A DNA stretch of 40,533 nucleotides from a virus: IMG/VR virus record IMGVR_UViG_3300020430_002026, positions 1 through 40,533 of that record; one strand, 5' to 3'. Both the position numbers and the translations under genes were made by a program. Every line of letters starts with the position of its first letter. Position 1 is the first letter of the stretch. The notes below the pieces were generated by a model. That model had not been told where the DNA came from. It ran no database searches and saw nothing but the letters and a program-made list of their open reading frames with translations. This document shows positions 159 to 38,716 of the stretch, piece after piece.

Positions 159-671
159 ATGATATCACAGGAACTGAAGCGGTTACTCGTACAGAGAAGG
201 AAGCTCCCGCTCTTCCAATTTATAGGAAACCTTGACGAAGACTGGTGTACTTCCCTCGCGGAACAGGCAAAGACTATCGAGTCAACTGCCGAGGTTTCAA
301 AGAAGAACAACATTACATTTGACAGGTATGACTTCCTCGAGTTCTATGACCAGAGGCACATGGATATCGAGCTGCCCGAGATATTCGAAGTCTTTGGAAG
401 CGTATATGACCTGAGGTTTGGAGTCCTCGAAGCCGGCAAGACTCTTCCGGCTCACGTCGATCACCCGAAAGACCTGAGGTTTATTGCGGTACTCGAGGGG
501 GAACACGTATTTCGCATCGTCGATAAGGTCCAAGACGAGCGAGTCATGAAGAAGGGTGAACTCTGGTTTATTAATTCAAGCTATAACCACGAGGTCGAAA
601 ACACAACAAGCAGTCAGAGGATTGCACTACTAGGTAAATTTGAAAATGGAACTCAACTACTACGAACTTGA
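159..671 (+). CDS. aspartyl/asparaginyl beta-hydroxylase-like Fe(II)/2OG dioxygenase
   Basis: 170 aa. The C-terminal half has the layout of the aspartyl/asparaginyl hydroxylase family: LPAHVD (His99, Asp101), Arg107, a strand pair, GELWFINSSYNHEVEN (His144) and Arg154. This gives the HxD...H iron site plus an arginine suited to 2-oxoglutarate. The predicted role is hydroxylation of a protein or small-molecule side chain; the substrate is unknown. The start has no clear Shine-Dalgarno, so it rests on frame alone. The 3' end overlaps the radical SAM gene by 26 nt, so the two are probably co-translated. Base composition is visibly GC-richer than the virion genes, suggesting later acquisition. 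Confidence 0.7.
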   Translation: MISQELKRLLVQRRKLPLFQFIGNLDEDWCTSLAEQAKTIESTAEVSKKNNITFDRYDFLEFYDQRHMDIELPEIFEVFGSVYDLRFGVLEAGKTLPAHVDHPKDLRFIAVLEGEHVFRIVDKVQDERVMKKGELWFINSSYNHEVENTTSSQRIALLGKFENGTQLLRT

Positions 672-1554
672 ACCCGAAGACAATACTTTTCCGGAAGTCG
701 TTGCCGATATTACGCACCGCTGCAATATGACGTGCCGTAACTGCTATATCCCGAACCGAGACGTGCCGGATATGGATATCGACCGGCTCATCGACTGCGT
801 ATCGAGGTTCCCAAAGAGGATCATGATCAGGTTGATCGGCGCGGAACCAACGATGAGGAAGGACCTGCCCGACATCATTCGCAGGATTCGAGCCGCGGGC
901 CACCGAGTCGTAGTCCTGAGTAACGGGTTGAGGCTCGCAAGGAAGAGCTATGCTCAGGAACTCCGAAACGCCGGGCTCAGGCACTGCTACATCTCGCTCA
1001 ACGGAGTCGACAACGACGACTGGTACGAGGAAATCGACGAGCTTCGCTGTGCTACAAAGAAGGTTCAAGCTCTCGAGAACATGAGGGACGTGAAGTTTAC
1101 GATCGACGTAGGTTGCATCCTCGTCAAGGGCTGCAACGACGAGGCACCGAGCCGGATGCTGAAGCTCATGGACGAGAAGGGAATCGAAAACTGCGTCATG
1201 AGGTTTAAGAACATCGGTCAGATTGGTCGCTACATCGACGTACCGAACTGGACACTCGACGAGCTCATCGGAGTCGTTGCCGAACAGGTCGGAGTCACGA
1301 AGGACTACATCTACAGTTGGCAGAACAGCTGGGCAGACCGGGAGTCCGAGGTCGAGCCGGACAGCTTCTACTTCCCGGTAGGGCACGACGGAAAGTCGTT
1401 TCACAGGTACGGTCGCTGGATCAAGATCGTGAACTGGGACGTCACCGGTAAGGTCACGCCCCTGTCGAATCGAAAGACTCGGGGAAGGATCACACCCGAC
1501 TTTAAGGTAGCACCGTTCTTCGAGCACGTAAAGTTAAACGAGGGCGGCTATTAA
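646..1554 (+). CDS. radical SAM enzyme
   Basis: 302 aa. It carries the radical SAM signature CNMTCRNC near the N-terminus (CxxxCxxC; Cys26, Cys30, Cys33), which binds the [4Fe-4S] cluster that cleaves S-adenosylmethionine. The core is followed by TIDVGCILVKGCND and a C-terminal segment (RWIKIVNWDVTGKVTPLS...) that resembles a SPASM/twitch hairpin but lacks its cysteine pattern. I chose the ATG at 646. An in-frame TTG at 640 is the alternative, and neither has a strong Shine-Dalgarno. Arg codons are rich in AGG, unlike a typical T4-like virion gene. It lies between a dioxygenase and an acetyltransferase-like gene in one operon. The substrate is unknown; peptide or sugar modification is plausible. 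Confidence 0.8.
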   Translation: MELNYYELEPEDNTFPEVVADITHRCNMTCRNCYIPNRDVPDMDIDRLIDCVSRFPKRIMIRLIGAEPTMRKDLPDIIRRIRAAGHRVVVLSNGLRLARKSYAQELRNAGLRHCYISLNGVDNDDWYEEIDELRCATKKVQALENMRDVKFTIDVGCILVKGCNDEAPSRMLKLMDEKGIENCVMRFKNIGQIGRYIDVPNWTLDELIGVVAEQVGVTKDYIYSWQNSWADRESEVEPDSFYFPVGHDGKSFHRYGRWIKIVNWDVTGKVTPLSNRKTRGRITPDFKVAPFFEHVKLNEGGY

Positions 1555-3655: not shown

Positions 3656-4116
3656 GGGTCTGCCTCGTTCCAGTGTTCCGTTATATTAGCCTCCTGTTGG
3701 TCTTGATCGTCCTTATTCTTCTTCCATCCTACGGCTTCTCCTCCGTCGTGCTGCTTACCAAATGACCCGAGAGGAGTTGTTTGCCCCGTTGGATCCTCCC
3801 ATTGGCTACAGTGTTTCTTACATTGCAGTGGTATTGTATCCCAGGACTCTTGATTTTTTTCGAGTATCTCGTTAAAGAATGGCTCCTTGATGATATCGAC
3901 TACCGACCTGTTTTCCACGTTGAAGTCCTTTTCCCTTTCGATGTATTCCTTATATTGCGGTATCATCCAGTCGAGGTCGCCTCCGCCGTCGTACTTTTCC
4001 CTCCAGTAGATGTTGGCAAAGTAGCAGCAAGGGTGTACCTGACCGTCCGGGTCGATGTGTACGATGTTTCGATTAGCCCAGTCGCACTTAACTACTGGCT
4101 TGTCTGAGGTCGACAT
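3649..4116 (-). CDS. stand-alone SPASM-type Fe-S domain protein
   Basis: 155 aa. I start it at the ATG at 4116, which has a perfect AGGAGG Shine-Dalgarno; a longer frame (to 4266) lies wholly inside the radical SAM gene. Cys11-x13-Gly25-x4-Cys30 (KCDWANRN...DPDGQVHPCC) matches the SPASM opening CX9-15GX4C. A later CKKHC (Cys99, Cys103) supplies further ligands. There is no radical SAM core. The gene overlaps the upstream radical SAM gene by 29 nt. The simple reading is that core and auxiliary-cluster domain, usually one polypeptide, are two co-translated subunits here. The C-terminus is rich in Lys, Asp and Gln and probably disordered. Confidence 0.62.
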   Translation of the reverse strand: MSTSDKPVVKCDWANRNIVHIDPDGQVHPCCYFANIYWREKYDGGGDLDWMIPQYKEYIEREKDFNVENRSVVDIIKEPFFNEILEKNQESWDTIPLQCKKHCSQWEDPTGQTTPLGSFGKQHDGGEAVGWKKNKDDQDQQEANITEHWNEADPW

Positions 4117-4813
4117 TACTCCTCCTGAGTGTTTCCTGCTCGTTGTTTTCGTTATAGAATCGAAATTCCTGCCCGTCGTCGTTGAAGAACGCTCGGTTAC
4201 TCTTCTGGAAGAGGCAGGTTGTTGCGCCCCTCTCTCGGCACATTTCCTTGATTTCACGAAGCACATGCTGGTTATGTTCGAATACGATGGTATGTGTTTC
4301 CGCGAACCCGCCTCCCATGACGAAGGCCTCCATGTGTGAGAGTACGAGTCCCAGGTCTACGAACCTCCTGTACTTCGCGTGCATCTCGTTGGTAGTACCG
4401 TCCACGTCAAAGACGACTCGCATCTTCGGGTTGTCACGGTGGCTGTTTTCCTTGACTCGAGCACCGAGCTCGTACCAGTAGAAGTCGTCGTGAGTACCGC
4501 CGTTCGTGTTGACCGTGACCCGCCAGCCGTTGCCGAGGAAGTAGTAGATCATCTCCTCGATGCCCTTGACCATGAACGGGTCACCGTAGGTGCCGCATAT
4601 GAAGACCTCGTATACCGGCAGGTCCGGCGGATATACTCGCTTGATCCTCTCGGGAGTCCACATCCTGTTAGGAATCCAGTCAAACTTACGAAGCCCGCCG
4701 TTCTTGTGATCCGTACGATCGCACTGCGGGCAGCCGGCGTTGCAGTACGTCGAGGGGTCGATATACAGCCTGAGGTTGTTTTCCTTCCTGAGTATGTCTC
4801 GGAACCGCGGCAT
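4088..4813 (-). CDS. radical SAM core protein
   Basis: 241 aa from the ATG at 4813, which overlaps the stop of the upstream gene (TGATG); a longer frame to 4915 would lie inside that gene. CNAGCPQC (Cys24, Cys28, Cys31) is the radical SAM cluster motif. VFICGTYGDPFMVKGIEEMI fits the SAM-binding GGEP-like strand, and VTVNTNGG and VVFDVDGTTNEMHAKYRR fit later barrel strands of SPASM-type enzymes. The protein ends soon after the barrel, so it lacks its own auxiliary domain; the next gene supplies one. It is only distantly related to the radical SAM protein at 646. Confidence 0.8.
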   Translation of the reverse strand: MPRFRDILRKENNLRLYIDPSTYCNAGCPQCDRTDHKNGGLRKFDWIPNRMWTPERIKRVYPPDLPVYEVFICGTYGDPFMVKGIEEMIYYFLGNGWRVTVNTNGGTHDDFYWYELGARVKENSHRDNPKMRVVFDVDGTTNEMHAKYRRFVDLGLVLSHMEAFVMGGGFAETHTIVFEHNQHVLREIKEMCRERGATTCLFQKSNRAFFNDDGQEFRFYNENNEQETLRRSNVDLRQASS

Positions 4814-6477
4814 CAGAAGAACCACTCGAACTTTTTGTTCATGACGTGTATCAATTTTGCCTCCCTGTTGACCTGCTCGGGTGTATGATAGTTCTCGTTT
4901 ACCTTGTGGTGCCACGTCTTCGTGCTCAAGTTAAACACTCGAAGGTCCCTCGAATGGACTCGATAGGACATTACGGTCTCGTTATCGTAGCCGAACGACT
5001 TCTGGATCTGCGGTATATACATGGAAAACTCGTCTTCCTGCAGCTGAGTCATACCGTCGAGCAGCTCCTTGAAGTCATCGAAGTAGCCGAGCTCGAGCAG
5101 CTGGACCCTTGAACCACCCCATATGCCGGTGTTAAATACGTTGTTTCTCGGCTCGTGGCCGTCCTCCATGAGCATGGCATGTGCGTTCCAGTACTTCGCG
5201 TACGGTGACCGGTAGTGGTATACGTGCTCGTCTGACCGGCTAGCACGGAGCTTGTCGACGTCGGCGTGAGCCTCGTCCTGCAGGTACTGATCAAACGCGC
5301 AGGCAGTAGCAACCTGCAGGTTAAAAGCGTCGAAGAAGCTGTCCTGAGTATTGCAGACCACGTCGAAGTCAAGGTATAACGCGTTGTCGTAGTCGTTCTT
5401 GACCAGCTCATACATGCAGTGAATCTTATAGAAGTTGACCACGTTGTACTCACTCATGTCGGGGATGTATGACCTCATCTCGCTGCGGAAAGCCTCGTAG
5501 TCAAGGCTGTCACGGAAGGTAAAGTAGTCCGCACCGATGCTTCGAGCGTACTCCTTCTTGTTCTCCTCGAGCTGCTTCTCGTACTTCAGGAAGTTGAGTC
5601 GAGCTCGCTCGTTCTTGTCGATGTTGTCCCCGTAGAAGGCTCCCGCATCGACCTGAAGCTCCGGCGGGATCTCGACATGGAGGGAATACACCACGTTTTT
5701 CTTGTCCCTATAGTGGCTGGCAAAGTTCTTGTTGATGTAGTGGATCAGCTTGCCTGTGGCTTGTGGTTCCGCCACGGTGTGCCACTCGCGGTCGTCTTCC
5801 TGGTGCTCTACACCGGATTCTACCAGTGCTGCCGAGAAGAAGACCTCGTTGTTATGGGTATAGGACTCATAGTCGCCACCTACCTTCTTGGCGTAGCCAT
5901 TTCCAGCCTTGAGTTGCTCGGTCGTGTCAATGTACTTTTGCAGCTTTTTCATGAATCCTAGCTGCCTGATAACACCTCGAGAGCCTCCCATAATGGCGGT
6001 ATTAATCACAGCGTTGTCCTTACCACGCAGCAGGGCCGTAGCGTGCTGCCACTTCAGGAAGGGGTTACGAATATCCTTATGCCACTTGTATATCTTCTCG
6101 TCTACCAGATCCTTCTGAGAAACTGCCCATATTTTTTCCGACAGGTCAACCTCTTCAAAAAAATTCAGGTCAGTATTTACGATAACGTCAAAGTCAAGGT
6201 ATAAAACCTCGTCATATTTTTTTGACAGCTGCTCAAACTGAAAAATTTTATAGAGGTTGATGGCGTTGTATATGGTATCGATCGAAAATTTTTCCTGAAA
6301 CTCCTGAATTTTTTTCAGGTCGTCAAAAAATTTCCAGTCAGCACCGCATTTTTTCGCGTATTCTTCCTTGGACTCAAGCAATCTCGAGTAGTATTCCCGA
6401 AAACAATAGAGGCTAAACCTCTCCTTGTCCGGCAAATCTTCGGGTGTTACAAACATGCTATAGATTACTTTAGCCAC
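4813..6477 (-). CDS. tandem glycosyltransferase with two homologous domains
   Basis: 554 aa with an internal duplication. Domain 1 (about 1-260) has YLDFDVIVNT (DxD at 95-97) and INTAIMGGSR (158-167). Domain 2 (about 262-554) repeats these as YLDFDVVCNT (370-372) and FNTGIWGGSR (448-457). Both end in a KLIH...NK motif (243-250, 541-548). The layout fits GT-A nucleotide-sugar transferases related to family 8. Two intact DxD sites suggest two transfers per polypeptide. The start is GTG with AAAGGA upstream; it overlaps the 60-aa gene by 8 nt. The 5' third is AT-rich with T-runs, while the 3' two thirds is GC-richer, so the two domains differ in composition. Confidence 0.75.
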   Translation of the reverse strand: MAKVIYSMFVTPEDLPDKERFSLYCFREYYSRLLESKEEYAKKCGADWKFFDDLKKIQEFQEKFSIDTIYNAINLYKIFQFEQLSKKYDEVLYLDFDVIVNTDLNFFEEVDLSEKIWAVSQKDLVDEKIYKWHKDIRNPFLKWQHATALLRGKDNAVINTAIMGGSRGVIRQLGFMKKLQKYIDTTEQLKAGNGYAKKVGGDYESYTHNNEVFFSAALVESGVEHQEDDREWHTVAEPQATGKLIHYINKNFASHYRDKKNVVYSLHVEIPPELQVDAGAFYGDNIDKNERARLNFLKYEKQLEENKKEYARSIGADYFTFRDSLDYEAFRSEMRSYIPDMSEYNVVNFYKIHCMYELVKNDYDNALYLDFDVVCNTQDSFFDAFNLQVATACAFDQYLQDEAHADVDKLRASRSDEHVYHYRSPYAKYWNAHAMLMEDGHEPRNNVFNTGIWGGSRVQLLELGYFDDFKELLDGMTQLQEDEFSMYIPQIQKSFGYDNETVMSYRVHSRDLRVFNLSTKTWHHKVNENYHTPEQVNREAKLIHVMNKKFEWFF

Positions 6478-36952: not shown

Positions 36953-37036
36953 TGGTACCTCCGGCCGGACTCGAACCGGCACGCCAATGGCCACGGATTT
37001 TAAGTCCGTTATGTCTACCTATTCCATCACGGAGGC
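36953..37036 (-). tRNA. tRNA-Leu(UAA)
   Basis: Minus strand. Acceptor GCCTCCG pairs with CGGAGGT; anticodon stem ACGGA/TCCGT with loop CTTAAAA, anticodon UAA; T-arm GGTTCGAGTCC; a variable arm suited to a class II tRNA. CCA is encoded (36953-36955). It reads UUA and UUG codons, including the UUA of the gp26 slip site. Confidence 0.92.
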
Positions 37037-37038
37037 GA

Positions 37039-37115
<77 letters not shown>

Positions 37116-37751: not shown

Positions 37752-38030
37752 TTAATCCCAATCGTTGTCAAAACGAGTAGTGGCACGCATGGTGTCACCA
37801 TAATATTCATCAGCATACTTAGATGCATCAGTCCAATGGTTGACGTTGTCGTAATCATTTTTGATTACAGCGTCATAGCCCTTGGATGCAGAGTAACCTT
37901 TAGGAAGGTATGACTCGGTGTAGTCACGAACCAAACGAGCTTCTTTAGCCTTTTTAGCTTTTAGGCGCTCACCGGCAAGGCGGATAGCTTGAAGACGTTC
38001 AGCTTTGGTTGAGTTTTTAGTAATGTTCAT
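37752..38030 (-). CDS. small conserved protein, first gene after an early promoter
   Basis: 92 aa from the ATG at 38030 (MNITKNSTKAERLQAIRLAGERLKAKKAKEARLVRDYTESYLPKGYSASKGYDAVIKND...). The strong GGAGA at -9 defines this start; an in-frame upstream ATG at 38045 contains that Shine-Dalgarno. A basic helix is followed by a Tyr/Asp-rich part. The leader (ATGGAGAATATCGTT before the ATG) resembles that of 39350. No family was recognised. Confidence 0.7.
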   Translation of the reverse strand: MNITKNSTKAERLQAIRLAGERLKAKKAKEARLVRDYTESYLPKGYSASKGYDAVIKNDYDNVNHWTDASKYADEYYGDTMRATTRFDNDWD

Positions 38031-38066
38031 AACGATATTCTCCATCTTTGTTTATTTTATGATACC

Positions 38067-38109: not shown

Positions 38110-38146
38110 TTTATTTCCTTTAAAATCAACAACTTACGTTTTTTTT
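38102..38146 (-). repeat. promoter-upstream repeat, copy 2
   Basis: Minus strand: A-run, CGTAAGTTGTTGAT, short variable part, GGAAATAAAAATGCAT, matching copy 1 at 36706-36750. Its left end overlaps the stop of the 33-aa gene at 38145. Confidence 0.7.
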
Positions 38147-38246
38147 ACATGCACAGATCTTCATACTTTGTCGTATGTGCTCGATGTGCAGACAAGTCTT
38201 TGGTATAATGGATGGTGCCAAAGATCTTTTGTAGCCATTTAAACAT
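38145..38246 (-). CDS. 33-aa peptide gene
   Basis: MFKWLQKIFGTIHYTKDLSA and 13 more residues (HRAHTTKYEDLCM). The ATG at 38246 has a strong GGAGG Shine-Dalgarno, 6-7 nt before it, just after the tmRNA hairpin and T-run. The N-terminus is an amphipathic basic helix. Its size and good ribosome site suggest a real early micropeptide; no function is known. Confidence 0.6.
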   Translation of the reverse strand: MFKWLQKIFGTIHYTKDLSAHRAHTTKYEDLCM

Positions 38247-38264
38247 ATAAACCTCCAAAAATAA

Positions 38265-38424
38265 AGTGCCACTTTTCTGTTCCAAGGCAAGTGGCCAGCC
38301 CGGTAACTACGCTGCGGCAGCTACAGGTGCAAAGTTATCGTTTGCAGTTAGTTGATTGACCTATTACGCGGTCATCCGGTAAACTCCACTTCACTCTCAT
38401 ACCTGTCGATCCTTGTTCGCCCCC
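38265..38424 (-). ncRNA. ssrA: tmRNA coding piece (permuted, two-piece ssrA)
   Basis: The minus strand starts at 38424 with GGGGGCGAACAAGGAUCGAC, matching the tmRNA 5' consensus. GGGGGCG pairs with CGCCUCC of the acceptor piece (one G-U). GACC...GGUC (in pseudoknot 1) precedes the resume codon. The tag frame at 38345-38307 is GCA AAC GAT AAC TTT GCA CCT GTA GCT GCC GCA GCG TAG = ANDNFAPVAAAA. A hairpin (GCCACTT/AAGTGGC, 38268-38274 with 38289-38295) and T-run end the piece. The gene order is permuted: the acceptor piece at 38605 comes first in transcription. This arrangement is typical of alphaproteobacteria. Confidence 0.9.
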
Positions 38425-38597
38425 ATCATAAAAGCACGGTTGTAAGCTTCTTCGAAGCCGTCTTCGTGGTAAACATTTTCATGGTTACCCCAAAGTCTTT
38501 TAAAATAACTATCATAGGAAGCGTAGGCTATTTTGTCAGTGGTTATGTAACCCTTGACAATCCAAAATAATCTATGTGCTTCCTTATGTTCTACCAT
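38397..38597 (-). CDS. 66-aa ORF inside the tmRNA intervening segment
   Basis: MVEHKEAHRLFWIVKGYITT ... and an ending FEEAYNRAFMMGANKDRQV. The ORF begins 8 nt after the encoded CCA and ends 28 nt inside the tmRNA coding piece, so its last 9 codons are the tmRNA 5' end read as protein. The residue mix (Trp, Tyr, Phe, charged helices) looks like a genuine small protein. No Shine-Dalgarno precedes the ATG. If translated, it must come from the unprocessed precursor, so protein and tmRNA production would compete. Confidence 0.45.
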   Translation of the reverse strand: MVEHKEAHRLFWIVKGYITTDKIAYASYDSYFKRLWGNHENVYHEDGFEEAYNRAFMMGANKDRQV

Positions 38598-38604
38598 GCG
38601 TTTA

Positions 38605-38664
38605 TGGTGGAGGCGGCGGGTACTGCCCCCGCGTCCAGTCTATGTTTATGTTGCTTCAACATTT
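38605..38664 (-). ncRNA. ssrA: tmRNA acceptor piece
   Basis: The minus strand ends GGAC-GCGGG-GGCAGTA-CCCGC-CGCCTCC-A-CCA (38636 to 38605). The T-arm stem GCGGG/CCCGC is perfect. The 7-base loop GGCAGUA differs from the usual UUCRANY. CGCCTCC pairs with the coding piece. Upstream, ATGTTG-AAG-CAACAT is a 6-bp hairpin. The 5' end is inferred near 38664, where a TATAAATA box would place transcription. Confidence 0.8.
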
Positions 38665-38671
38665 ACAGTCC

Positions 38672-38679
38672 TATTTATA
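38672..38679 (-). promoter_or_regulatory. possible late promoter upstream of the tmRNA
   Basis: Minus-strand TATAAATA, 8 nt before the inferred acceptor-piece start. The same bases can form a hairpin (CCTAT-ATAA-ATAGG), so it may instead be part of the precursor RNA. The operon also runs in from the early promoter at 39384. Confidence 0.45.
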
Positions 38680-38716
38680 TAGGATGGTGAGCTAACCGTG
38701 GCCCACCGCGCACTTA

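Follow-up and report, generated by a model that had tools for sequence, protein, structure and literature searches.

Does the stretch between the two pieces of a phage-encoded split tmRNA, which is expected to be cut out and thrown away, carry anything of its own? This question was raised by a permuted two-piece tmRNA in IMG/VR virus record IMGVR_UViG_3300020430_002026, analysed here over its whole length of 40,533 nucleotides (the window). The original prediction, made from the sequence alone, placed an acceptor piece and a coding piece on the minus strand, read the host class from the permuted type, proposed that the AAAA tail of the tag could change ClpXP/adaptor recognition, and passed over the intervening segment as empty.

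The locus was first checked with ARAGORN and Rfam covariance models. ARAGORN called a permuted tmRNA (tmRNA*) on the minus strand at 38216-38698, with both internal junctions (38605 and 38424), the acceptor-stem pairing and the tag as originally given. The general permuted model (tmRNA_permuted, RF04321) matched end to end (103 bits, gathering score 47, model positions 1-213 of 213). The alpha_tmRNA model (RF01849), whose score had been set beforehand as a test, gave 100.1 bits (gathering score 50), but only over model positions 40-269 of 355, so that the outer helices (positions 1-39 and 270-355) were not matched. For comparison, 105 of 115 alphaproteobacterial genomes had a match over the cut-off, almost all at 143-313 bits (one extra copy at 72.8) and over positions 1-355. 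The phage copy is therefore real but its outer parts have diverged. The acceptor stem GGGGGCG/CGCCUCC forms 7 pairs including one G-U, and the tmRNA is the only copy in the record. The 3' end of the coding piece is uncertain, being drawn at 38216 by ARAGORN and at 38265 in the original prediction. The window also encodes a T4-type gp32 and gp59. Phage C48C1, the nearest isolate by gp32, had no tRNA or tmRNA in the 24.9 kb examined. The features of the locus are collected in the table.

Table. Features of the tmRNA locus and of the remainder of the window (positions are those of the window).
Positions	Strand	Feature	Evidence
38605-38644	-	Acceptor (tRNA-like 3') piece, with encoded CCA at its 3' end (38605-38607); extended by ARAGORN to 38698 on the 5' side	ARAGORN 3' tRNA domain; RF04321 and RF01849 alignments
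38425-38604	-	Intervening segment, 180 nt, expected to be absent from the mature two-piece RNA	Lies between the two ARAGORN domains; bacterial control median 31 nt
38397-38597	-	66-codon ORF (family A) filling the intervening segment; ATG 8 nt after CCA, stop TGA 27 nt inside the coding piece	90 confirmed relatives in IMG/VR; ORF length against shuffles, p 0.005 and 0.010 in two runs
38593-38604	-	5' arm of the helix closing the intervening segment (11 of 12 positions pair); contains the ATG of the ORF	Pairing analysis; also present in the predicted fold
38429-38440	-	3' arm of the closing helix	Pairing analysis
38425-38428	-	TGAT motif directly before the coding piece	Present in 207 of 274 viral and 2 of 101 bacterial loci
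38216-38424	-	Coding (mRNA-like) piece as drawn by ARAGORN; true 3' end uncertain	ARAGORN; Rfam models reach 38307-38308
38307-38345	-	Tag reading frame ANDNFAPVAAAA plus stop; resume codon GCA	ARAGORN
38145-38246	-	Small ORF directly downstream, MFKWLQKIFGTIHYTKDLSAHRAHTTKYEDLCM, with GGAGG leader	C-terminus HRAHTTKYEDLCM resembles, by eye and without statistical test, ORFs inside other intervening segments
37752-38045	-	97-aa downstream gene	150 IMG/VR relatives; no PHROG or Pfam match
36953-37115	-	Two tRNA genes	
640-1554	+	ORF with CxxxCxxC motif, like a radical SAM enzyme	By motif alone
4088-4915	-	ORF with CxxxCxxC motif, like a radical SAM enzyme	By motif alone

The observation of a phage-encoded permuted tmRNA thus held, whereas the interpretation built upon it was supported in part only. 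The host class cannot be read safely from the tmRNA, since phage Melnitz has an alpha-like two-piece tmRNA but infects Methylophilales, outside the Alphaproteobacteria (PMC9004378). The AAAA tail is not exceptional: it ends 8 of 234 distinct viral and 3 of 96 distinct bacterial tags in our set, and 226 of 234 viral tags keep the C-terminal AA. An altered ClpXP recognition remains a mere possibility. The main point lay in the intervening segment, which is almost filled by a conserved small gene.

The 66-aa protein encoded in the segment, or its family profile, had no match in Pfam, PHROGs or the PDB (best E 0.45), nor was the protein matched in 50,697 isolate phage records (INPHARED). An AF2 model (pLDDT 81) predicted three helices, and Foldseek searches gave best E values of 5.0 in the PDB and 2.3 in BFVD. 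In IMG/VR, however, 90 stretches encoding a relative were confirmed by tblastn (best E 2e-20), and residues K15, G16, Y31, R34, W36 and F48 were invariant over 45 members. Of the 80 of these loci that were retrieved, only four contained a permuted tmRNA according to ARAGORN (a pattern-and-pairing rescue added locus L047, whose spacer is 25 nt; L numbers denote the loci collected here), and in these the gene lies outside the tmRNA, so these are ordinary free-standing small genes. In L036 and L727/L728 the gene lies just upstream of a tmRNA acceptor piece.

To establish whether this arrangement is a one-off, permuted tmRNAs were collected from three pattern scans of viral contigs, from the loci retrieved through relatives of window genes, and from Melnitz. 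At least 204 viral permuted tmRNAs were obtained with ARAGORN and 70 more with the rescue (L096, L117, L134 and L465, for example), many of the latter with long or gene-bearing spacers; databases built on ARAGORN alone may under-count this class. These 274 loci hold 228 distinct intervening segments of 3-267 nt. Because the set was collected by pattern and by relatives, fractions are not population estimates; the patterns did not cover cyanobacterial and betaproteobacterial types of phage tmRNA, some contigs are near copies, and distinct segments were counted. The gene of the window also lies between tmRNA pieces in four other distinct phage contigs: L096 (the same contig as L722), L106 (the same as L726), L134 and L724. 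The same slot holds unrelated families, designated O (76-78 aa, membrane-like), B, C, D, E (CxC...CxxC), I (weakly DUF2061-like), J, N and P, plus singletons. Family O was searched on its own and gave 20 loci, 15 in the slot and 5 free-standing. Three further loci, L745-L747 (about positions 1861-2250), have segments of 388 nt carrying two ORFs in tandem. The ORFs resembled by the small ORF downstream of the window tmRNA are those inside the segments of L392/L420 and L745-L747, as if small genes move in and out of the slot. Family B segments (L123, L144, L151, L347, L360, L383, L391) hold two overlapping ORFs in different frames, the upstream one with an AAAGGAG leader and the downstream one with the conserved membrane peptide; which is translated was not resolved, and coupling or frameshifting is possible. 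The slot ORF of L279, L326 and L358, with CxC and CxxC (MVICSCRDIRDSQYTN...CCGTC), looks by eye like a [2Fe-2S] bacterioferritin-associated ferredoxin, but this was not supported by Pfam. Among the slot ORFs, the Pfam search gave one weak DUF2061 match for L362 (22.3 bits, below the cut-off of 23.1) and otherwise matches at chance level, the PHROGs search gave nothing better than E 0.035, and no relatives of families O, C, I or E were found in INPHARED.

Coding potential was assessed as follows. Of 101 distinct viral segments of 95 nt or more, 42 carried an ORF longer than 95% of dinucleotide shuffles (about 5 expected) and 18 reached p<0.01; of the 23 segments of 160 nt or more, 18 reached p<0.01. 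Length alone does not mean a gene, since seven ARAGORN-parsed viral segments of 131-205 nt (L091, L103, L288, L377, L436, L468, L488) had ORF p>0.5. Median ORF coverage was 0.88 in sense and 0.48 in antisense (53 segments of 130 nt or more). In ten families with 2-7 members, the median pN/pS in the ORF frame was 0.14-0.39, against 0.48-4.4 in the other two frames wherever equal-length pairs allowed the comparison; slot family A (0.35 among four slot members) had no such pairs. Two further small groups are not claimed, one having a pN/pS of 0.52 and the other identical proteins. Among 57 well-supported ORFs (doubtful ones such as L036 and L327 were kept), 49 start 8-21 nt after CCA, and 26 are preceded by a Shine-Dalgarno-like tetramer, against a mean of 6.0 and a maximum of 14 in 200 shuffled leaders. 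The window ORF and three of its four slot relatives (L096, L106, L724) have no such leader and an ATG buried in the closing helix.

The first 10-11 nt after CCA pair with the nucleotides ending four bases before the coding piece. Positions 2-10 pair in 92-99% of 175 distinct viral ends, against 46-78% when partners are dealt to other sequences, with A-U, G-C, U-A and C-G all in use. No such rule was seen at the same register in the bacterial set (26 distinct ends), though a few bacterial loci have a like hairpin. In 23 of the 26 ORFs with a Shine-Dalgarno-like site, that site overlaps the 5' arm of the helix, and in 18 of 57 the start codon does, the window included. The precursor of the window folds with this helix (z -6.2 against shuffles).

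As a control, the 115 alphaproteobacterial genomes and other bacterial loci were parsed with ARAGORN, giving 101 permuted genes with 91 distinct segments (median 31 nt, 90th percentile 57, one of 110 nt or more). By the same parser, the viral set had a median of 89 nt and 53 of 168 at 110 nt or more; these comparisons use ARAGORN parses only, because the rescue was applied to four bacterial loci alone. No fitting ORF was found in the long bacterial segments examined: L683 (232 nt) had ORF p 0.41, the best ORFs of L718 (333 nt) and L703 (115 nt) were of 37 and 11 aa, respectively, and L714 gave no parse.

The reading preferred here, to which a probability of roughly 0.8 is given, is that this T4-like phage carries a permuted tmRNA whose intervening segment is a protein-coding cassette. 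The existence of the genes, their protein-level (purifying) selection in ten unrelated families, and their position in a defined slot, on the same strand and between the arms of a covarying helix, are demonstrated by the analysis; that the tmRNA is functional (processing into two RNAs, alanylation, SmpB binding, trans-translation), that the small gene is translated, and that translation competes with maturation are inferred from sequence and from the established biology of two-piece tmRNA (one precursor, processed by tRNA enzymes; PMC11915505, PMC9004378). In this view, the single precursor transcript is both mRNA and tmRNA precursor: ribosomes would translate the small gene from the precursor or from the excised segment, and RNase P and 3' processing would then release the two pieces, which would work by ordinary alanine-charged trans-translation. 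Because the ribosome-binding site or start codon often lies in or beside the closing helix, and that helix would stack on the acceptor stem, translation and maturation probably compete on one molecule, so that the phage would obtain the small protein and the tmRNA from one transcript with little extra genome length.

A more far-reaching version must be regarded as doubtful: that in marine and aquatic phages the segment is a dedicated, exchangeable site for small genes, sometimes two in tandem, framed by a conserved hairpin; that ribosome entry and tmRNA maturation exclude each other on a true dual transcript; and that in this window maturation also strips the stop codon of the gene, so that tmRNA polices the product of its own precursor.

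Among the alternatives, the one that survives best, though unlikely, is that the excised segment, released by processing on both sides, is itself the message, a tiny mRNA with its start 8-21 nt from the new 5' end. The positions of most ORF starts agree with this, and 27 of 57 ORFs have their stop before the cut; however, the other 30 would lose their stop in such a molecule, and excised hairpins are likely to be degraded. Somewhat less likely is that maturation makes its own client: the RNase P cut at 38424/38425 would remove the stop codon of the ORF, turning the message into a nonstop mRNA tagged by tmRNA, so that the small protein would accumulate only when maturation or trans-translation is limiting, in the manner of arfA. 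The geometry of the window and of the 30 ORFs ending inside the coding piece allows this, but the four other slot members of family A stop at a TGA just before the coding piece, so the arrangement is not conserved and is not claimed as the rule. It is improbable that the gene is real but the surrounding tmRNA a dead or decoy remnant, so that nothing is split in practice: the partial and comparatively low alpha_tmRNA match speaks for it, but the acceptor stem, T arm, CCA, resume codon, tag and stop are intact, the general permuted model matches end to end, and tags stay intact in the viral set. That the segment is a plain spacer with a chance reading frame, as the 59 of 101 segments with p>=0.05 and the lack of a ribosome-binding site in the window might suggest, is already largely refuted by the 90 relatives, most of them free-standing genes, by the four other contigs with the same family in the slot, and by its pN/pS.

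Split tmRNAs have been known since 2000 (Keiler et al., cited in PMC9004378), and what their spacer does, if anything, has to our knowledge stayed open. Selection shows here that phages use it to carry genes, so that a stable RNA and a protein can be read from one short transcript. This offers a reason why a phage may gain from a permuted tmRNA, supplies a set of overlooked small phage proteins, and makes the relation between translation and tmRNA maturation directly testable. Phage two-piece tmRNAs themselves are already in print, with 53 two-piece among 133 unique phage tmRNA structures counted in PMC9004378, but no report of a protein gene in the intervening sequence of a permuted tmRNA was found in a literature search confined to open-access papers and resting mainly on PMC9004378 and PMC11915505; PMC2743711, consulted for 23S IVS proteins, did not help.

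The alphaproteobacterial permuted tmRNA (RF01849, RF04321) shares with the window the order of pieces, acceptor stem, T arm, CCA and ANDN-type tag, but its intervening segments are short, with no fitting ORF in the loci examined. The two-piece tmRNA of the Methylophilales phage Melnitz (MZ577095-MZ577098; PMC9004378), also T4-like and with an alpha-like tag (ANDNYVPVDYALAA), gave the best isolate hits to the window tmRNA (79% over 33% of the query); its 142-nt intervening segment has an unannotated ORF (MEKYMFKWLSK...) that is not related to family A and of which no mention was found in PMC9004378. As far as could be read, protein genes inside tmRNA precursors are known only as the homing endonuclease genes of the group I intron form (36 of 883 in PMC11915505), in which a protein gene is likewise nested in a tmRNA precursor and removed on maturation; there, a self-splicing intron in the T loop carries a mobility gene, while here there is no intron, no splicing and many unrelated small proteins. 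Extra content in the same slot has been described in PMC11915505, which lists only 79 phage sequences, as single cases (one with a tRNA-Ala gene, one with a repetitive element) with no mention of protein genes. The regulation of arfA by RNase cleavage and tmRNA (PMC10107115) would be similar only if the nonstop reading holds, the message losing its stop codon and becoming a trans-translation client; arfA is not known to be nested in ssrA. The closest analogy is provided by the protein genes in 23S rRNA intervening sequences (S23, PF05635), where an excised, unligated rRNA segment encodes a small protein, although there the RNA is rRNA rather than tmRNA, the protein family is a single one, and the system is bacterial.
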